Of a DNA stretch of 64,000 nucleotides, positions 44,180 through 54,826 are shown one piece after another; position 1 is the stretch's first letter; each line of letters begins with the position of its first letter. Below the pieces are notes generated by a model. It was not told the origin of the DNA. It saw nothing but the letters and a program-made list of their open reading frames with translations, and made no database searches. A program made the translations under genes and the position numbers. The DNA is from Halorussus litoreus (lineage in GTDB: Archaea > Halobacteriota > Halobacteria > Halobacteriales > Haladaptataceae): NCBI RefSeq assembly GCF_003382685.1, contig NZ_KZ859503.1:96181-160180 (forward strand), written 5' to 3'.

Positions 44180-47100
44180 TCACTCCCCCACGGCGTCCTC
44201 GACGATTGCGATCTCGTCGTCGGTCAGCCCGTACAGTTCGTAGACGATCTCGTCGATGAGGTCGTCGGTGCGCTCGATCTTCGCGTCGAGTTCTTCGGCG
44301 CGTTCTTTCGTCTCGACGTAGCTCTCCAGCCCGCCCGCCACGTCTGCGACGGTGGGCAGCGTGAGCTTCTCCAGTCGGTCCACCAGCGAGTTCGTCTTGG
44401 TGGCGTTGTCCCGGAACCCCGCGAAGCCGCCGGCCTCCGCGACCGCGACGGGGACGAACGCCTCCACGAGGTCGGCCTCGGTCTCGGAGAGGTCGGTGAT
44501 CCGGAGCGCGGGCAGGAACTCCGTCTCGGTGTAGCCGTACTGGTCGAGGTCGTGGCCGCTTCCGCGGGCTTCGCCCGCTCCAGTCCGAGACCCTCCCGCT
44601 GGTCGCGTCTCGCTGTCTTCATCATCGGGTTTGTACCGCGCCGTGAGGTGGATGGTGACGGTGGCGGAATCCTCGCGCTCGACGTTCGCGCGCTCGATCT
44701 GGAGTTTGGTCCGCGTCTCGGTGGTCTCGTTGAGGATGGAGTCCGCGCTGTTCGTCGGGGGTTGGCTGAAGCCGATTTCGGTGATGGTGGGGCCTTCCGA
44801 ATAGTTGCCGAGGTGGTCGAGAAGGGAGAGGTTGAGAGTTCGGAGTTCTTTCTCTTTGTCCTGACATTCGACAGCAGACTCACGAAGTGTTTCCAACTTT
44901 TCGCGAGGGATGTTATCTTGCGAGAGTATCGGCAAATCACCGACATATGTTGAGCTATTCATGTAATACCCACCACGCATCATGGAGGCGATATTGTGCA
45001 GGTACATCTCTAAGAGATTTGAATTAAGGACTGCAACGAGGTAGGGGTCATCTTGAGTGAAAAAGAAAACCGTCTTGTTCAAGAAATAACCCTCAGTATC
45101 GAGAGTGAATTTTGTGTTTTTCGATACCTCGGGGAAAATTATCTTGTCCTTCGAAAACTCGGAGTAGTAGTCACAAGGTCGAAGATGATACCACTTTTCA
45201 CCACGCTCGGTCCGCTCTTCTAAAGATTCTCGGTACTGTTCCAGATATGACTGAATGCCGGGGTAGTTCTCAATCTTCACACCCCCATGCAACCACAGAA
45301 GGTATTCATTGTCAAAGTTAATCGAATGGTTCTCAATATTTTGGCCGGAGATGAATTCTTTGATCAATTCTTCAGAACCGCGATCTGAACGAATTATATC
45401 TTCCTTTTCATATTCGTCAATAATCAAAGCTTCATTGAAGCCCGTCATTATACCACGACGAATACCAGTATCGATTATGTCAGAGAGTTTTTCTCCCCTT
45501 GAGTCCATCTTGTTCATGATTTGCGTCTGTTCTGGACTCCCGAAAGTCCAACTTTCACCTTGGAAATGGTCACTCGGAACTAAAGCGGAGTTCGAGTCAA
45601 TAATAGATTGCAAGTCTGAGAAATCCAAATGTGGAATCTTAGCGAACTCCGTTTTACTTTGCTTGACCCCCTTTTTCAGTATAAAGATAGCAGGATAGGT
45701 GGTTGCACCATCAAAGACTGGCAAGTCGCCAAAGTCACAAACAGAATCGATTTGGTGATTGTTTGAAAGGAATTTGCGGAGTCCCTTTCCATAGTCAGCA
45801 GTAACAAATCGATTCGTGACAATGAGACCAAGCATTCCCTGCTGGCGCAGAACTTGAGTTGACTGCTCAAAGAAATACGTGTAGAGATCAGCAGTGCTAT
45901 CGTAGGTTTCGAATTTTGTCTGGAAAAACTTCTTGAATCTGCTGATAGACTCCTGCCGCACATACGGCGGATTCCCGACCACAGCATCGAACCCGGCATC
46001 CGACGATAACTCACCGCTCCCGTCGAAGAACACCTCGGGGAACTCCAGTTCCCAGTGGAAGAACTGCTCGGTCGCCGCCATCGCCTGCGCACTTGTGAAC
46101 CAGTCGGACTCGGCCACCTCGTCCCACGAGTCGTCGCGGAGCGCCCTCGCCATCTGCTCGTCGGCGTCGTCGGGCACGTCGAGGCCGAACTGTCCGGCGG
46201 TGTGGACCGAACACATCTCCAGCAGGTGGCGGAACTGCGGGTCGTCCCGGATCTCGTCGTAGGTGCGCTCCATCTGCTTGATGTCCGCGAGTTCGTCGTT
46301 CTCGATTGCCAGCAGGTCCGCCATCAGGTCCATCACGTGGTCGAGCGCCTCCTGACGGGTCTGCTCCATCCAGTCCGAGAGCGTCGTCTGACCGGACAGG
46401 TCGTCGTCACCGTCGTCGGTCGACAGTATCCGGCTGATGTCCGACCCCACCAGCGAGTTGCCGGTCTTGAGATGGTGGTCGAGGAAGGCCAGCGGCTGGT
46501 CGGCCGCCAGCGTTTCGAGCCACATCGACAGCTTCGACAGTTCGACCGCCATGTCGTTGAGGTCCACGCCGTAGATGCACTCCTTGGCGATCTTGCGCCG
46601 GATCTCCTGCTCGTCGTACGACTGGAGTTCCTGCTCGCGCACCACCGCCATCACGCGCTCGGTGAGATACCCCGTCGCCTTCGTGAGGAAGTGCCCGCTC
46701 CCCATCGCCGGGTCGAGGATCTTCAGCCCCCGAACTCGCTGCCAGAAGCGTGCGAAGTACTCCCGGTCGCTCGGCTCCAGCCCGTCGTCCCGGAGGTCCT
46801 CGTCGATCTCGGCGACCAGCGGGTCGACCGTCTCCTCGACGATGTAGGTCACCACGTAGTCGGGCGTGTAGTACGCGCCGGTCGCCTTGCGCTCGCCCTC
46901 GTCGTTGACGACGTACAGGCTTCCCCCGGGGACCGTTTCGACCGCGTCGGCCACCGACACCTCGGTCGCGGGCTTCCACACCTGCCCGCCGTCCTCGGCG
47001 ACCGCGGCGTACTGCTCGGGCGCGATGCGGAACTCGTGTTCGAGCAGCCCCTCGTAGATGGAGCCGAGGTGGCGCGTGTCGAGGTCGGCGTAGTCGGCGA

Positions 47101-48331
47101 GCACGAACTCGCCCTCGTCGGTCTCGGTGGTCGAGAGCCGGTAGATGACCTCCGCGATGTACCGGTCAGAGACGCTGTTCTCGGTGAGGAACCCGTGCTC
47201 GTCGGCATCGAACAGCCCGCCGTTGTACGCCGTGACCCCGAGCGCCGCGTTGCCCTCGTCGATCAGCCCGAACAGGTCCCGCAGTCGCTGCCAGATGGAC
47301 GTGGAGAACTCGCTGTACGCCTCGTCGAACGTCTCGCCGTCGTCTCTCGTCCGGAGGATGTCGAGTCGCTTCTGGTCGAGGCTGAAGTTGTCCCGGTACT
47401 CGTCCTTCGCGTCCGGGTCGTCGGGGTTGATGAGTTGGCGCGACTCGGCGTACAGGATGAACATCAGGCGGTACAGCAAGACGAGCGACTGCTCTTTGAG
47501 TTCGTCGAGCGCCTCCTCGTCGTCGGGGTCGATGTCGAGGTCGTTCGTCTCGACGAACCCCTTCCCGAGCACTCGAAGCGCGGTGAAGACGTTGTCCTGC
47601 AGGTCCTCGCCGAGTTCCTTGGCCGCGGTCTCGCTCTCGGTCCACACCGTGTCGAGGAAGCTGGTTCCGGCCACGCTCCGGAACGCCTGGGGCCGGAAGA
47701 ACAGGTAGAAGTACTTGAAATCCTCGACGTTGCCGGTTTCGAGCAGTTCCGGCAGGTCGACCTCGTAGAACGTCTGGGTCTCGTAGTCCTTGGTCCCGTA
47801 CAGTCGCCACTTCTTCCCATCGGTCAGGATGCCCCACTGGACCGACTCGGGCGTTCGTTCGAGGTAGAACTTCACCTGATGGGACGCGTCGCGGTACTGT
47901 CGCTCCTCGCTGAACCGCTCGGTGAAGCTCGACCCCCACTGCTTGGCCTCCAGCACCGCGGACGCTCGCTTGAACAGTACCTCGGCGTCGCCCTCCATCC
48001 CCTGCATCTCGGCCTCCCGGCGGGCGTCCGCGGACTCGAACAGGAGCCGGTCGACGTACCCGCCGCCGTCGGGAAGCGTCGCTTCCGGCCGCGCGCCGTA
48101 CCCCAGTACGTCCAGCACCGGGTCGATCCACGCGTCTATCAGGGCGTCCTCGTTCTGGCCCGCCGCCAGTCCGCTCTCCTTCTCGTACAGCGACTGCAGT
48201 TGCTCGAACACCGCTTCGACGCCCTCGGCCGACTCCCACTCGTCGAGTTCGTCGATCCGCTCCTTGAGATAATGGTCGGTGAAGAGATTGGAGTTCCGGT
48301 ATGGTTTCCGGGACAGCGTCGATTGACTCAT
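44180..48331 (-). CDS. Type IIG restriction-modification enzyme (N6-adenine methylase with nuclease domain)
   Basis: 1383 aa from ATG 48331 (alternatives at 48349 and 48364; the frame open to 49291 is not used because it would cover GGGP synthase). N-terminal PD-(D/E)xK-like nuclease with D94 and E128-x-K130 (VLEAKQW); helical connector; methylase motif I DPAMGSGHF near 539 and motif IV NPPYVRQ near 787; then a target-recognition region and a helical C-terminus. Residues ~790-1167 are encoded by clearly AT-rich DNA (44830-45960) between GC-rich flanks. PglX-like methylase of a defence system is the alternative, but no other BREX gene is nearby. Confidence 0.85.
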   Translation of the reverse strand: MSQSTLSRKPYRNSNLFTDHYLKERIDELDEWESAEGVEAVFEQLQSLYEKESGLAAGQNEDALIDAWIDPVLDVLGYGARPEATLPDGGGYVDRLLFESADARREAEMQGMEGDAEVLFKRASAVLEAKQWGSSFTERFSEERQYRDASHQVKFYLERTPESVQWGILTDGKKWRLYGTKDYETQTFYEVDLPELLETGNVEDFKYFYLFFRPQAFRSVAGTSFLDTVWTESETAAKELGEDLQDNVFTALRVLGKGFVETNDLDIDPDDEEALDELKEQSLVLLYRLMFILYAESRQLINPDDPDAKDEYRDNFSLDQKRLDILRTRDDGETFDEAYSEFSTSIWQRLRDLFGLIDEGNAALGVTAYNGGLFDADEHGFLTENSVSDRYIAEVIYRLSTTETDEGEFVLADYADLDTRHLGSIYEGLLEHEFRIAPEQYAAVAEDGGQVWKPATEVSVADAVETVPGGSLYVVNDEGERKATGAYYTPDYVVTYIVEETVDPLVAEIDEDLRDDGLEPSDREYFARFWQRVRGLKILDPAMGSGHFLTKATGYLTERVMAVVREQELQSYDEQEIRRKIAKECIYGVDLNDMAVELSKLSMWLETLAADQPLAFLDHHLKTGNSLVGSDISRILSTDDGDDDLSGQTTLSDWMEQTRQEALDHVMDLMADLLAIENDELADIKQMERTYDEIRDDPQFRHLLEMCSVHTAGQFGLDVPDDADEQMARALRDDSWDEVAESDWFTSAQAMAATEQFFHWELEFPEVFFDGSGELSSDAGFDAVVGNPPYVRQESISRFKKFFQTKFETYDSTADLYTYFFEQSTQVLRQQGMLGLIVTNRFVTADYGKGLRKFLSNNHQIDSVCDFGDLPVFDGATTYPAIFILKKGVKQSKTEFAKIPHLDFSDLQSIIDSNSALVPSDHFQGESWTFGSPEQTQIMNKMDSRGEKLSDIIDTGIRRGIMTGFNEALIIDEYEKEDIIRSDRGSEELIKEFISGQNIENHSINFDNEYLLWLHGGVKIENYPGIQSYLEQYRESLEERTERGEKWYHLRPCDYYSEFSKDKIIFPEVSKNTKFTLDTEGYFLNKTVFFFTQDDPYLVAVLNSNLLEMYLHNIASMMRGGYYMNSSTYVGDLPILSQDNIPREKLETLRESAVECQDKEKELRTLNLSLLDHLGNYSEGPTITEIGFSQPPTNSADSILNETTETRTKLQIERANVEREDSATVTIHLTARYKPDDEDSETRPAGGSRTGAGEARGSGHDLDQYGYTETEFLPALRITDLSETEADLVEAFVPVAVAEAGGFAGFRDNATKTNSLVDRLEKLTLPTVADVAGGLESYVETKERAEELDAKIERTDDLIDEIVYELYGLTDDEIAIVEDAVGE

Positions 48332-48450
48332 CTGAATATTCGGTGTCATGGACACCATCGACATGAAACTACTGCATATCCGTCCGGACAGGCCCGACGA
48401 GAGTGACTGGTGGGTCCGTTGTTCCCCGCGTAGCTCCCCGATTCGAAGAC

Positions 48451-48458
48451 GTTTTAGT
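48451..48458 (+). promoter_or_regulatory. TATA-like box of the GGGP synthase gene
   Basis: TTTTAGTC lies 24-31 nt before ATG 48482, within the 150-bp divergent gap to the restriction enzyme gene. Confidence 0.45.
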
Positions 48459-48481
48459 CGCTCCTTTTGATTACACAGGTA

Positions 48482-49204
48482 ATGACCGCACCGTGGGACG
48501 ACTGGGACCACGTCGTCAAGCTGGACCCAGACAAGAGCCTCGCGCCGGGCGAGAGCTTCGAGGACGTCTGCGAGACCGGCACCGACGCGCTCGAAATCGG
48601 CGGGACGACCGGCATGACAGAGGAGAAGATGGAGAAGGTCATCGCGGCCTGCGGCAAGTACGACGTGCCGATCTATCAGGAGCCGTCGAACCCCGCCGTC
48701 GTGGTCGAGCGCGAGGAACTCGACGGCTACCTCGTCCCCACCGTGCTGAACGCCGGCGACCCGTTCTGGATCACCGGCGCGCACAAGGAGTGGGCGCGCA
48801 TAGAGGACGTCGACTGGTCGCGCAGCCACGCCGAGGGGTACGTCGTGCTCAACCCCGACTCCAGCGTGGCCGAGTACACCGAGGCCGACTGCGACCTGAC
48901 CGCGGAGGACGTCGCGGCCTACGCCGAGGTCGCGGAGCACCAGCTCGGCCAGCCCATCCTGTACGTCGAGTACTCGGGCACGTTCGGCGACCCCGAGGTG
49001 GTCGCGGCCGCGGCCGACGCGCTCGACGACGCGGCGCTGTTCTACGGCGGCGGCGTCCACGACTACGACACCGCTCACACGATGGCCGAGCACGCCGACA
49101 CCGTGATCGTCGGCGACCTCGTCCACGACGAGGGCTGTGAGGCCGTGCGCGAGACGGTCGAGGGTGCGAAGGACGCGGCGAAGACCGCAGCCGAGTCGGT
49201 GTAA
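48482..49204 (+). CDS. Geranylgeranylglyceryl phosphate synthase
   Basis: 240 aa TIM barrel that joins geranylgeranyl diphosphate to sn-glycerol-1-phosphate, the first committed step of archaeal ether lipids. Signature segments: [13 protein letters not shown] at the N-terminus, [16 protein letters not shown] near 32, [16 protein letters not shown] near 160 and [33 protein letters not shown] near 185, the phosphate-binding loops of the family. Short form, without the longer bacterial N-terminus. Confidence 0.92.
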
Positions 49205-49350
49205 CCCGCCAACCCCCGATTCGGCCGCCAATCCCAGCTTCGCCCGCCAACCCCGATTCGCCCGCCGCTTCTCGTCTTCGTTCCGCTCCACGTCAACTAC
49301 TCTCTATCCGCCCTCTGCTCCCAATCCTCGGACAGAACGCCCTCTTGCCA

Positions 49351-49360
49351 AATATTTATC
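49351..49360 (+). promoter_or_regulatory. TATA box of the ATP-grasp/metalloprotease pair
   Basis: AATATTTATC lies 25-34 nt before ATG 49385. It is the only evident promoter for the two-gene unit. Confidence 0.55.
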
Positions 49361-49384
49361 TCCCACCGATGAAACCATACCCGT

Positions 49385-50320
49385 ATGGTCGTGATATTAA
49401 TGGGGAACGTTCAGGGACACGAGTTCGACTTGCTCGGCGACGAGATACGGTCGCGGGGGAGCGAGGTTACGATCGTCGATCTCGACGAGTGGCCGAGCGA
49501 GAAGCCGGTGGCCCAGAACGTCGACGAGAAGTCCGTCCGGATCGGCTCCGAGACCATCCCGATGGCGGACGTGGAGGGCGTGTTCGCTAGGCCCAACACC
49601 CTGTTCATCCCGGCGGTCGAGGACCGACTCCACGGCAGTCTGAGCGACGCCGATAACCCGTACGCCGCGCTGACCCAGATACGGGAGTACCGCGGCCTGT
49701 TCGAGAGTGTCCTCCAGTCGCTGGAGTACCACGGGGCGACCGTGATACCGGCGGTCGACGCGCTCGTCTGGGAGGAGATGAACCCCTACGGCTGCGACCT
49801 GTTCGACTCGATGGGCATCGACGTGCCCGAGACGCTCGCGACGAACGACTCGGCGGCCGCGAAGCAGTTCCTCGAATCCCACGGTAAAGTCGTGTACAAA
49901 CCGGTCGCCGGGGTCGGCGGCGCGCACGTCATGACCGACGACGAGACCGAGGAACTCGAGAACCTGACCACGCCGGTGCTGTTCCAGGAGTTCCTCCCCG
50001 GCGACGACGTTCGCGCGTACGTGCTGGACGGCGAGTTCCTCGGTGCCTTCCAGTACAGCTACGACGACGAGTCGTTCTCGTTCAAGTGGACCGACAGCGA
50101 GATCGCCGCCGAAGCGGTCGAACTGCCGGCGTCGGCGAAGCAGGACGTACTCCGCGCCGTCGAGGCGACGCCCGCGGACTACGCCACCGCGGACCTGCGA
50201 CTCGGGGACGACGGCTCGTACTCGCTCATCGAGGTCAACGCCGGCGGCCGGTTCATGCTGTCGGACTCGAGCGGGATAACGAACGTCGCCGACGCGCTCG
50301 TCACCCACCTCCTCGACTAA
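49385..50320 (+). CDS. RimK-like ATP-grasp ligase, candidate peptide-modifying enzyme
   Basis: 311 aa. N-terminal Rossmann-like lobe (VILMGNVQGHEFDLLGDEI), ATP-grasp lysine loop VVYKPVAGVGGAHVM at 169-183, adenine region LFQEFLPGDDVRAYVLDG at 199-216 with R210, and metal ligands in SLIEVNAGGRF (E283, N285). This matches RimK/MvdD-type ligases that form amide or ester bonds on peptides, glutathione or ribosomal proteins. A PqqD-fused membrane protease begins four bases after the stop, which favours a ribosomal-peptide maturation role. Lysine-biosynthesis LysX or coenzyme gamma-F420 ligase are alternatives, but their partner genes are absent. Confidence 0.8.
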   Translation: MVVILMGNVQGHEFDLLGDEIRSRGSEVTIVDLDEWPSEKPVAQNVDEKSVRIGSETIPMADVEGVFARPNTLFIPAVEDRLHGSLSDADNPYAALTQIREYRGLFESVLQSLEYHGATVIPAVDALVWEEMNPYGCDLFDSMGIDVPETLATNDSAAAKQFLESHGKVVYKPVAGVGGAHVMTDDETEELENLTTPVLFQEFLPGDDVRAYVLDGEFLGAFQYSYDDESFSFKWTDSEIAAEAVELPASAKQDVLRAVEATPADYATADLRLGDDGSYSLIEVNAGGRFMLSDSSGITNVADALVTHLLD

Positions 50321-50324
50321 CCCG

Positions 50325-51284
50325 ATGACGGAGCACGTCGTCGTCGACGACGCCCGATACGGGTTCACGTGGTACCGCGTGGACGGCCAGTACTTCCTCG
50401 AATCCGAGGACGGCTATCGGCGGGTGAACGACTCGGTCGTCGACCTGCTGAACAAACTCGCGCGGGGAACGCTGACCGTCGAAGAGCTACGAGCGCAGGC
50501 GAACGGCGGCCCTGCGGTCGTCGAGGGGTCGGGGACGAACCCGGAGGAGGTGCTCTCGCTCGTCGAGACCTACCTCGAACGGGGCATCCTCCGAGAGGAC
50601 GAACCGGTCGTCCGCGTCACGCCGCCCGACGACGTGAGACTGTGGCCTCGCGTGGCGGTCTTCCTCCTCGTCCTCTCGGCGTTCGGAGCCGTGGTCGCAC
50701 CGATCGCGTCGAGCGTGTCGCCTGCGCTGCTCTCGCGGCTGTCCGTCGGTCAGATCGCGTCGATAGCGGTGCTGTCGGCCGGCTTCGTCGCGATCCACGA
50801 GTACGGCCACTACGCGGTCAGCGCCCGCCACTTCGATCCCTCGGTTCGGCTCGACGTCGTGAACGGCGTCGTCCCGGCGGTCGTCACGGACACCACCGGA
50901 TCGTGGACGCTGCCCCGCAACCAGCGCATCTGGATCAATCTCGCCGGGCCGCTGTTGGAACTCGGCGCGGCCGTTCCGTTGGTTGCCCTCCACTACGTCT
51001 TTCCGAACCACCTCGTCGTCCAACTCCTGCTCCTCGCCGTGTTCGGGCACGTGGTGTTCGCGTTGAACCCGTTGATACACGGCGACGGCTTCTGGATCCT
51101 GTGTGACTACTTCGGTCTGCGGGACGTGCGCCAGCGCGGATTCGAGGACCTGCGAGCGCTCCGGCCCTCCTGGACGGCAGCGTACGTGGTGGTGTCGTAC
51201 GGCCTCGGAGCGGTTCTCGTGGTCTGGATGACCGTCACGTTGGCCGCGCTCCTCGGACTGGTCGAGTTTCACGTCCCGGTCTGA
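50325..51284 (+). CDS. PqqD-like domain fused to membrane M50-type metalloprotease
   Basis: 319 aa. Residues ~12-92 resemble PqqD/RRE peptide-binding domains: YFLESEDGYRRVNDSVVDLL, the turn ARGTLTVEELRAQ, then a helix EEVLSLVETYLERGILRED. Membrane segments follow, with the zinc motif HEYGH at 158-162, NLAGPLLEL, and NPLIHGDGFWILCDYFGL at 248-265, where D254 is placed as the third ligand. This resembles YydH-type RiPP proteases rather than sterol-type S2P, as there is no PDZ domain. It should bind and cleave a peptide in or at the membrane. Co-transcribed with the ATP-grasp gene. Confidence 0.75.
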   Translation: MTEHVVVDDARYGFTWYRVDGQYFLESEDGYRRVNDSVVDLLNKLARGTLTVEELRAQANGGPAVVEGSGTNPEEVLSLVETYLERGILREDEPVVRVTPPDDVRLWPRVAVFLLVLSAFGAVVAPIASSVSPALLSRLSVGQIASIAVLSAGFVAIHEYGHYAVSARHFDPSVRLDVVNGVVPAVVTDTTGSWTLPRNQRIWINLAGPLLELGAAVPLVALHYVFPNHLVVQLLLLAVFGHVVFALNPLIHGDGFWILCDYFGLRDVRQRGFEDLRALRPSWTAAYVVVSYGLGAVLVVWMTVTLAALLGLVEFHVPV

Positions 51285-51359
51285 GCCGTTCGTTCGCGTC
51301 GGCGGAGTCCGAGCGATAGACGCGAGCGCAGATCGTCGAGGTACGATGGGCGTCGAAAC

Positions 51360-51373
51360 CCGAAAAAGGGTGT
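51360..51373 (-). terminator. Possible T-rich terminator after the 34-aa peptide gene
   Basis: Reading leftward, CACCCTTTTTCGGG follows the peptide stop by about 50 nt. Archaeal termination uses T-rich tracts, so this is a plausible end for the leftward transcript. Confidence 0.35.
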
Positions 51374-51421
51374 TTTATCGCCGTCGTGCAGTGGGCAGAT
51401 CGGTGCCTGCGTCGGAACGCT

Positions 51422-51526
51422 TTACAGCATCTCGACGGAGATGCACGAGGGGAGTGCGGTACTTTCTCGCTCGGTCACTTGGCTATCTTCGAGTTCGCCG
51501 ATCAGGTGCTTGCTATCGTCGTTCAT
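51422..51526 (-). CDS. 34-aa peptide, candidate RiPP precursor
   Basis: ATG 51526 with GGAG five bases upstream; an in-frame ATG at 51541 would add MQWST. The N-terminal half is acidic and helical (NDDSKHLIGELEDSQ), the C-terminal part TERESTALPSCISVEML has acidic, hydroxyl and one cysteine side chains of the kind cross-linked by ATP-grasp enzymes. It is convergent with the ATP-grasp/PqqD-protease pair, 137 bp away, and has its own AT-rich promoter. No similarity recognised; identity as a precursor is inference. Confidence 0.45.
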   Translation of the reverse strand: MNDDSKHLIGELEDSQVTERESTALPSCISVEML

Positions 51527-51555
51527 GGTACTCCATTGCATCCGTGGAACCGGAA

Positions 51556-51567
51556 CCTAATTAATTC
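51556..51567 (-). promoter_or_regulatory. AT-rich promoter of the 34-aa peptide gene
   Basis: On the minus strand the box reads GAATTAATTAGG, about 30 nt upstream of the peptide ATG. The surrounding 51540-51620 is by far the most AT-rich intergenic DNA in this part of the window, with a second box CCTATAAAACC at 51605-51615. Confidence 0.5.
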
Positions 51568-51626
51568 TTTGTTTAAGTTCTATTAAACTAATTGAAGTGA
51601 TTTTGGTTTTATAGGATTACAGTCCA

Positions 51627-51746
51627 AGACCTCTCTCGAAGTACTGCTGAGTCCTACATCCCGGCGACGAAACAGCGACATCGTGTGAAATTCGAAATAC
51701 GAGGCGAACTCACCATCGTCGCCCCGAATCGGAATCGAACGGTGGT
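51627..51746. other. Intergenic, no gene seen
   Basis: Ordinary-composition DNA between the AT-rich promoter and the end of the APC transporter gene. A TTCGATTCC-like string near 51730 (minus strand) looks like a tRNA T-loop but no cloverleaf can be formed around it. Confidence 0.4.
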
Positions 51747-53981
51747 TCAGAACGCCAGCCGTTCGACCAACCGACCGAACAGTCCCGGCCGCGCAGAGCC
51801 GTGCGGATGGACCTGTATCGTAGAGGTCTGGGCCTCATCGGCGAGCCGGTCCTGCGAGCGACGCCACAGCGTCCGATGGACCCGCCCGCCGTCGTCGCCC
51901 ACCACGACGAGGTCGACCGTCCCGGTCGCGTCGGTCAACTCCTCGAACCGGTCGCCCTCGGACTCGACGAGGACGGACTCGACGGGCACCGAACACACCG
52001 ACGCGAGCTCGTCGTGGTAGTCCGCCAGCGTCTCCCGGCGCTGCGTGGTGGCCTCGGGCGACACCGGATAGAGGAGTTGGATGGTGGCATCGCCCTCGCG
52101 TGCGAGTGCGTCGGCCACTGCGACCTTCAGTGGGTCGTACGGCCCCCGGTCGGTGACCAGCGCGATCACGTTCGCGGCGTCGAAGTCGTACTCCTCGGCC
52201 GGAACCACGTCGTCGCCGACCGCGACCACGTCACAGGGCGCGTGGTCGACGATCCACTCGAAGTCGTTGCGGAACAGGCCGAACCGCAGCGGGGTCGAGT
52301 TCCGTTCGAGGACCATCATATCCGAGTCGTGGTGGTCGGCGAAGTTGACGATGGCGTGTTTGGTGTCGTGGCTCACGATCTCACCGTACTCGACCGGCAC
52401 GTCGACCTCGGCCGCGAGCCTGTCCGTACGCTCCTCGAACGCCACGTCGGCGGGCGACTGCTCGGCCGACGCGCCTTCGAGCGGCGTCTGGTCGGGCACC
52501 TCGTCGAACTGGACCACGCGGACCCGGCCGTCGCGCTGGCCCACGAGGCCGGCCGCGATGCCGAGCAGCGCGGCCTCCCGTCGTTCGGTCGTCTCCTCGG
52601 TGACCGGGACCAGCACCTCGTAGTCGTTCGACTCCGAGACGGTCGAGCGGGTCTCCTCGACGACGCGGCGACCGACCGAGCGACGGACGGCGTCTCTGGC
52701 GACGCCCTCGCGGTCGATCTTCCCGTGGGCGTAGACGTAGTACCACGCGACCGACGCGAGCGTGATTCCGGCCGCGCTGAGTATCGGAATCCACCCCATC
52801 TGAGTCAGCAGCGCGAGGCCGCCGACCGCGCCGAACCCCTGCGTCCACGGGTACAGCGGCGACTCGAACGCGGGGTCGTACCCCTCCACGTCGCCCTCGC
52901 GGAACGCGACGACCGCAATGTTGACCAGCACGAACACGAGAATCTGGAACGCGCTGGCGAGCTTCGCGATGTCGAGGATGGGGACGAACGCGATGAGCAG
53001 CAGCATCACGCCACCGGTGAGCGAGATGGCTAGCGACGGCGTGTTGAATCGCTGGCTCACGGTCGAGAGCGATTCGGGCATCAGGCCGTCGCGGCTCATC
53101 GCGAACGGGTACCGCGACGACGAGAGCAGCCCCGCGTTCGCAGTGCTCACGAGCGCGAGGATGGCCGCGAACACCACGACGATGACGCCCGGTCGTGCGA
53201 GCGCGACCTGCGCGGCGTCGGCCATCGGTGTCAGCGACCCCGAAAGCTCCTCTCCGGGGACCACCCCGACCACGACCGTCACGAGCAGGACGTACAGGAT
53301 CGTGGTGAACCCCAGCGAACCGAGGATTCCCAACGGGATGTTCCGACTAGGGTTCTCTATCTCCTCGGCGACGCTAGCGATCTTTGTCACGCCCGCGTAC
53401 GAGACGAACACCAGCCCGGTCGCCGCGAACAGTCCGCCGGCACCCTTCTCGAAAAAGCCCTCGTACTGGACGGACTGGATAGCGCCGCTGCCGCCCGCGA
53501 CGAACCAGACCAGCGCCGCGAGCATGGCGATAACGATGCCGACCTGCAGGCGGCCGGTCTGCTTCGCGCCGAGCAGGTTCACGCCGATGAGGAACACGGC
53601 GAGCCCGAGCGCCACGGGCTTGATCGGCAGGTCGAACAGCACGACGAGATACGGGACCCCGCCGACCAGCGCGAGCGCGCCCTTGAACGACAGCGAGAAC
53701 CACGTGCCGAGTCCGGCGACGGTGCCGAGCAGGGGGCCCATCCCTCGCTCGATGTAGATGTACGTCCCGCCGGCTTCGGGCATCGCGGTCGCCATCTCGG
53801 CCTTGCTCAGCGCGGCGGGCAGGACGAGCACGCCCGCGATCAGGTACGCGAGGATGACGGCCGGTCCAGCGATCTCGAGCGCCAGCGCGGGCAGGATGAA
53901 GATGCCACTGCCGATCATCGCGCCGAGGCTGATGGCGATCACCGCGAACAGACCGAGGTCGCGTTCGAGTTCCTTCCCCAT
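51747..53981 (-). CDS. APC family amino acid transporter with C-terminal UspA domains
   Basis: 744 aa from ATG 53981; the longer frame to 54485 overlaps the TrkA-N gene and is rejected. Residues 1-430 carry about twelve membrane helices with APC motifs GLFAVIAISLGAMIGSGIFILPA and the substrate loop. Residues ~465-600 and ~605-744 are two cytoplasmic UspA-like domains (YEVLVPVTEETTERREAALLGIAAGLV; ANVIALVTDRGPYDPLKVAVADALA). The UspA part probably binds nucleotide and regulates uptake. The upstream TrkA-N gene ends 2 bp before its start. Confidence 0.88.
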   Translation of the reverse strand: MGKELERDLGLFAVIAISLGAMIGSGIFILPALALEIAGPAVILAYLIAGVLVLPAALSKAEMATAMPEAGGTYIYIERGMGPLLGTVAGLGTWFSLSFKGALALVGGVPYLVVLFDLPIKPVALGLAVFLIGVNLLGAKQTGRLQVGIVIAMLAALVWFVAGGSGAIQSVQYEGFFEKGAGGLFAATGLVFVSYAGVTKIASVAEEIENPSRNIPLGILGSLGFTTILYVLLVTVVVGVVPGEELSGSLTPMADAAQVALARPGVIVVVFAAILALVSTANAGLLSSSRYPFAMSRDGLMPESLSTVSQRFNTPSLAISLTGGVMLLLIAFVPILDIAKLASAFQILVFVLVNIAVVAFREGDVEGYDPAFESPLYPWTQGFGAVGGLALLTQMGWIPILSAAGITLASVAWYYVYAHGKIDREGVARDAVRRSVGRRVVEETRSTVSESNDYEVLVPVTEETTERREAALLGIAAGLVGQRDGRVRVVQFDEVPDQTPLEGASAEQSPADVAFEERTDRLAAEVDVPVEYGEIVSHDTKHAIVNFADHHDSDMMVLERNSTPLRFGLFRNDFEWIVDHAPCDVVAVGDDVVPAEEYDFDAANVIALVTDRGPYDPLKVAVADALAREGDATIQLLYPVSPEATTQRRETLADYHDELASVCSVPVESVLVESEGDRFEELTDATGTVDLVVVGDDGGRVHRTLWRRSQDRLADEAQTSTIQVHPHGSARPGLFGRLVERLAF

Positions 53982-54714: not shown

Positions 54715-54826
54715 CGAACGACCGAGAACTCACCACCACGAACGATCCAGAACTCACCACCACGAACGATCCAGAACTCACCACCACGAACGATCCAGAA
54801 CTCACCACCACGAACGACCGAGTGGC
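54715..54826 (+). repeat. 24-bp tandem repeat beyond lrp
   Basis: Copies 54739-54762, 54763-54786 and 54787-54810 of CGAACGATCCAGAACTCACC plus ACCA are identical; the flanking first and last copies have GACCGAG in place of GATCCAG. In the leftward frame the repeat reads as VRGGEFWI, but no gene is supported. Confidence 0.9.

Follow-up and report, generated by a model that had tools for sequence, protein, structure and literature searches.

The window analysed here, a 64,000-nucleotide stretch of Halorussus litoreus (NZ_KZ859503.1) to whose positions all coordinates below refer, contains three genes that probably form a small cluster for a ribosomally synthesized and post-translationally modified peptide (RiPP). 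The first encodes a graspetide-synthetase-like ATP-grasp ligase of 311 aa (49385–50320, plus strand), assigned by its matches to TIGR04187 and by a profile search of the PDB, and an AT-rich promoter-like element, aaatatttat, can be read upstream of its start at approximately 49351–49360 on the same strand. The second (50325–51284, plus strand) encodes a 319 aa fusion of a RiPP recognition element (RRE; about residues 1–100) to a site-2-type M50 membrane protease (about residues 105–310). The third, on the minus strand (51422–51526), is a 34-codon ORF encoding MNDDSKHLIGELEDSQVTERESTALPSCISVEML, which we divide into a leader, MNDDSKHLIGELEDSQVTERES, and a putative core, TALPSCISVEML, the core boundary being an assumption of the analysis. 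A sequence-only reading of the window had already drawn attention to this arrangement, and its description holds: the gap between ligase and protease genes is four bases by the ORF coordinates, the protease carries the motifs HEYGH and NPLIHGDGFW, and the facing ORF stops 137 bp past the protease gene.

The association of the short ORF with the two enzymes lies far beyond chance, because related ORFs adjoin every homologous pair and because a blind search recovered them. When the short ORFs around each pair were read, a matching one was present at 19 of 19 loci, distributed over 17 haloarchaeal genomes, each locus combining ATP-grasp ligase, RRE-M50 protease and short ORF. To avoid circularity, the blind test used a profile made from the ten peptides of the genus Halorussus only, and searched 4035 stop-to-stop frames from the nine loci of other genera and from control DNA. 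The nine peptides of the other genera took ranks 1 to 9, one per locus, with E values from 2e-8 to 0.08 and at distances of 0–208 bp from the pair; the next match was a control, at E=2.1. The nearest relative of the window peptide, adjoining the closest pair (locus L014), was found by tblastn at 4e-10, and starts at the equivalent of position 51526, although the window frame also has an in-frame ATG five codons further upstream (51541). Searched against the PDB, the peptide profile gave no meaningful match.

The peptide gene also appears to have its own promoter, as the sequence-only reading had supposed. A TATA-like, AT-rich element lies about 32–39 nt upstream of the ATG (51558–51565, minus strand), with all eight positions A or T in the octamer at −39, and an element with at least seven of eight A/T positions between −45 and −25 accompanies 19 of 19 family peptide genes, compared with 25 of 501 ATGs in the window.

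Across the 19 precursors the leader is conserved and the core is variable, the pattern expected of a RiPP precursor. The leader comprises two parts, HF(I/V)E(E/D)L and (D/E)(L/V)EERx(N/S), which are fused in distant genera and spaced apart in Halorussus. Between the window peptide and its L014 relative, the proportions of non-synonymous (pN) and synonymous (pS) differences are 0.11 and 0.49 in the leader codons and 0.57 and 0.28 in the core codons, all from small counts.

By sequence likeness the ligase belongs to the graspetide synthetase family, from which its function is predicted. TIGR04187 (ATP-grasp ribosomal peptide maturase) matches it over its full length at 8.6e-20, ahead of RimK-type families, and matches all 22 members of the ligase family. 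A profile built from 22 relatives and run against all PDB sequences had 7drm as its top match (E=1.8e-72, full length), which we take to be PsnB, the plesiocin synthetase, the PDB record naming it only as an ATP-grasp domain-containing protein. The microviridin-type synthetases MdnB, MdnC and CdnC followed at about 1e-24, and RimK-type ligases at only about 1e-16 to 1e-18. With PsnB ahead by more than 50 orders of magnitude, a RimK-like glutamate ligase is ruled out as the closest relation; the earlier label of ‘RimK-like ATP-grasp’ is refined in that the nearest kin are the graspetide synthetases, PsnB above all. Residues E283, N285, D270 and R210 are unchanged across the 22 family members, and the window ligase keeps the residues aligned to the YKPV, DVR, D and ExN positions of PsnB. 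At three Halorussus loci (L020, L021 and L022) there are two ATP-grasp genes, one copy of which has Gln in place of Lys in YKPV and may represent either a partner or an altered enzyme.

The protease falls within the M50 or site-2 protease group, with an HExxH motif and a distal DG zinc-ligand motif in membrane helices; H158, E159, H162 and D254 (the Asp of the HGDG motif) are invariant in the 19 members of the protease family. An AlphaFold2 model of the full protein, made from 19 relatives, reached a predicted local distance difference test score (pLDDT) of 91.7, and the best Foldseek match of its membrane part was 3b4r, the M. jannaschii site-2 protease, with a probability of 0.99 but an E value of 0.054. 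The closest named sequence family is daptide_HExxH (NF041824), which matches the window protein at 1.1e-13 and all 19 members, the best at 2.8e-20. A YydH-type identity, the kind of M50 protease named in the sequence-only reading, was considered and rejected, as the YydH/LiaK model matches the window protease at 0.021 compared with 1.1e-13 for the daptide model.

The proposal that the protease begins with a PqqD-like domain fared better. Modelled alone, residues 1–101 (50325–50627, plus strand) gave a pLDDT of 90.0 and a bbbb-aaa succession of elements as in an RRE, a winged-helix fold in which a three-stranded sheet precedes three helices. All of the top ten Foldseek matches among 350,542 PDB chains bear RREs: PbtF, LynD (four chains), ThcOx, lasso B1, CteB, TruD and PqqD. 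We call the domain an RRE because all ten of these matches agree, despite weak individual E values. On this model the N-terminal domain folds as an RRE, and leader binding is predicted.

Among 391 Halobacteria genomes, the same 13 carry the M50 protease, the ATP-grasp ligase (E<1e-100) and the peptide (E<1e-6), a co-occurrence that shares training sequences with the profiles and is therefore supportive only. Weaker peptide matches elsewhere comprise a copy without an M50 gene (L086) and others, within long frames, that are probably due to chance. Two Halobacteria genomes (G399 and G299) encode remote ATP-grasps but have neither the M50 protease nor a family peptide. A separate scan of a contig collection returned four loci, all matching loci from the genome search, and viral contigs searched with the protease yielded nothing. 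Outside Halobacteria, distant M50 matches (G610 and G521) have neither ATP-grasp nor peptide alongside. The M50 and ATP-grasp proteins co-diverge (Mantel r=0.92, reached in 0 of 5000 permutations), which also follows from shared descent.

Several individual loci deserve mention. The H. litoreus genome has a second, paralogous cluster (L017, contig C12, 6977–9184) with ATP-grasp, RRE-M50 and the precursor MSKHYIEALDESDEIDLEERTNALYKTGPNGDIFV. In H. amylolyticus, L086 (6192–7335) is an extra copy with ATP-grasp and precursor and no M50 gene; its precursor retains the start of the leader and the C-terminus TPITWFGG and differs in the middle, and the copy may be degenerating or depend on a function supplied in trans. 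The cluster is on large plasmids in Halorussus salilacus (L093) and Halocatena salina (L094), a location that fits the patchy distribution of the cluster (13 of 391 genomes). A distant PqqD-like/M50 fusion (L095, 7305–8570), with no adjacent ATP-grasp or family peptide, is encoded in a genome of the same phylum outside the Halobacteria.

The two points on which the sequence-only reading had laid itself open to refutation, the fold of the N-terminal domain and the presence of a conserved short ORF beside homologous pairs, both came out in its favour. Taken together, the linkage at all 19 loci, the RRE-like fold, the intact catalytic residues of both enzymes and the conserved leader with its variable core bear out the suggestion of a peptide maturation locus, and we consider it probable that the three genes constitute a RiPP cluster of graspetide-type ligase, RRE-guided membrane leader peptidase and precursor. 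Judged by sequence relationships, the cluster appears real, with a ligase of graspetide type and an RRE-protease of daptide type, and the chemistry of the product is predicted from these likenesses. In the pathway we propose, the 34 aa precursor would be made from its own promoter and the HFIEEL-type segment at the N-terminus of its leader would dock on the ligase, which would activate an Asp or Glu carboxylate with ATP and join it to Thr, Ser or Lys, generating one or a few side-chain rings within or beside the core. The RRE of the protease would then recognize the modified peptide, probably by the (D/E)LEERxN segment of its leader, and the site-2 protease would remove the leader in or at the membrane. 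This would release a ring-bearing peptide of about 10–25 residues, in the manner of MpaP with daptides and EpeP with epipeptides, and the protease may both cleave and export, as proposed for EpeP. We infer the pairing of enzymes with leader motifs, the ring connectivity, the cleavage site, export and the biological role, whether signal, enzyme inhibitor or archaeocin; the lack of an obvious immunity gene is weak ground for preferring a signal or enzyme inhibitor over a membrane toxin.

Some observations count against this interpretation. Each single structural match of the RRE is weak (E from 0.03 to 0.3, the best being 0.03), and the NCBIfam scores of both ligase and protease lie below the curated cut-offs, including that of TIGR04187 for the ligase. 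Near the pair we saw no conserved gene for a dedicated exporter or for immunity. Lastly, the cores of L015, L016, L018 and L019 have no Asp or Glu after the leader motif, so that the standard rings, joining side chains within the core, cannot occur in every member of the family. In these four of 19 the acid could be supplied only by the conserved ExR segment or the C-terminus, and the ring pattern may therefore be new.

The composition of the cores is also the ground for the strongest alternative, which accepts a RiPP cluster and proposes that the ATP-grasp enzyme activates the C-terminal carboxylate to form a lactone or thiolactone, or couples the peptide to a free amino acid or an amine. Besides the four acid-free cores, Thr, Ser or Lys is present in all 19 putative cores and Cys in 11, often near the C-terminus, with Asp or Glu in 15; lactones or thiolactones with a side chain occur in some signalling peptides, and ATP-grasp enzymes can ligate other partners, as the RimK-type matches recall. 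Yet graspetide synthetases are far nearer to this enzyme than are ligases that add amino acids, and an acidic residue stands one or two positions before an invariant Arg in 19 of 19 precursors, a candidate ring donor. We consider this other chemistry unlikely, while granting it a real share of the probability. A bolder proposal is that the family constitutes a new haloarchaeal RiPP class, in which a PsnB-like ligase makes rings outside the graspetide rules, through an acid donor in the leader ExR segment or a C-terminal-carboxylate lactone or thiolactone, with maturation and release both carried out by an RRE-guided intramembrane protease and the product possibly serving as an archaeal pheromone; we offer it tentatively, as a somewhat doubtful extension of the evidence.

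Site-2 proteases commonly act in signalling, and the locus could on that general ground be a processing or regulatory module, in which the short ORF encodes an intracellular substrate (a regulator, for example) whose turnover depends on the protease, with no secreted modified peptide. The acidic peptide without a membrane span, and the failure to see a conserved exporter or immunity gene, would suit such a module, but a conserved leader beside a fast-changing core, a graspetide-type ligase, an RRE domain typical of RiPP pathways and the precedent of the daptide and epipeptide M50 enzymes as known leader peptidases (PMC10036551, PMC10885120) make it improbable. A spurious short ORF, leaving the enzyme pair without an encoded peptide partner, is hardly credible: the gene is absent from the RefSeq-derived record tables of two annotated relatives, tables that are incomplete by design, and open frames overlap it on the other strand, but its conservation at every locus, the blind profile test, the constraint on the leader and the promoter element contradict this view.

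Around the pair, the window encodes a PcrB-family enzyme, an amino-acid permease/Usp protein, TrkA-N and Lrp/AsnC proteins and an ABC transporter. An Rfam scan of 48000–53000 and a PADLOC search of the ATP-grasp/protease pair each gave zero matches. A large restriction-methyltransferase-like gene of DrmMI or type IIG kind occupies 44183–48328 on the minus strand (PADLOC, 2.7e-108), and a 24 bp tandem repeat, CGAACGACCCAGAACTCACCACCA, is present in 4.4 copies at 54715–54819, between the gene of an Lrp/AsnC-type regulator and a TrkA-N gene.

To our knowledge, the leader peptidases of graspetides, a large RiPP class, are mostly unknown; in the minimal three-gene set described here, a ligase of graspetide type comes with a membrane protease of its own, guided by an RRE. 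The set also carries the fusion of RRE and site-2 protease, known from daptides, over to a second kind of modification and to the Archaea, which suggests that RRE-M50 proteins could be used to search for more clusters. Haloferax volcanii has already served for the expression of archaeal RiPP clusters (PMC12144867); the three-gene set could be rebuilt there, making modification, leader removal and release directly testable. The sequence-only reading knew of no description of the combination. The RRE-M50 fusion itself is already known from MpaP; the joint presence of ATP-grasp and RRE-M50 in one archaeal cluster we did not find described in the papers searched. A graspetide group confined to Thermoprotea has been reported (PMC13097080), so that archaeal graspetide clusters as such are already predicted, and as far as could be found archaeal graspetides are uncharacterised in the literature. 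Neither haloarchaeal graspetides nor an M50 partner is mentioned in the text, supplements aside, of PMC8939145, PMC13097080 or PMC12144867, and the text of the last, an archaeal RiPP survey, contains neither ATP-grasp nor graspetides. A full-text literature search combining graspetide with Halobacteri, and ATP-grasp with haloarchaeal or archaeal RiPP, returned nothing; supplementary tables and subscription papers fell outside its scope and may already list synthetases of this group.

Compared with graspetides, and plesiocin in particular, the locus shares the ATP-grasp family, with a full-length PsnB match, a precursor of leader and core, and a short hydrophobic or aromatic leader segment of the sort typical of graspetides (PMC8939145). 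It differs in that Halorussus leaders have no Pro-hydrophobic (Phh) motif, the host is haloarchaeal, the cores are short, single and without repeats (as well as acid-free in the four cases above), and the leader is probably removed by the RRE-M50 protease rather than by a C39/PCAT transporter.

The daptide peptidase MpaP is likewise an RRE fused to a site-2 protease (PMC10036551), in the same layout, and the daptide leader motif ELExMEAP (PMC10036551) resembles the ELEERENA/T of haloarchaeal leaders. Daptide precursors have an invariant C-terminal Thr, whereas none of the 19 haloarchaeal precursors ends in Thr, and the modifying enzyme here, in an archaeal host, is an ATP-grasp rather than the oxidative decarboxylase, aminotransferase and methyltransferase set. 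No genes for the daptide oxidative decarboxylase (MpaB/C) or aminotransferase stand beside the pair in the window or in two annotated relatives, the remaining loci being checked by ORF list only. Membership of the daptides was rejected on the lack of a C-terminal Thr and of daptide enzymes next to the pair.

Epipeptides (YydF/EpeX with YydH/EpeP) also start from a small precursor on which an M50 membrane protease acts, and this enzyme, EpeP, has been proposed to cleave and export (PMC10885120); they differ in that no radical SAM epimerase adjoins the pair in the window and in that the M50 protein is nearer the daptide model. Of the archaeal RiPPs described so far, the lanthipeptides archalan, sallan and larlan, from a study in which Halorussus salinus is one lanthipeptide producer (PMC12144867), share a haloarchaeal host with the present cluster and differ from it in their LanM chemistry.
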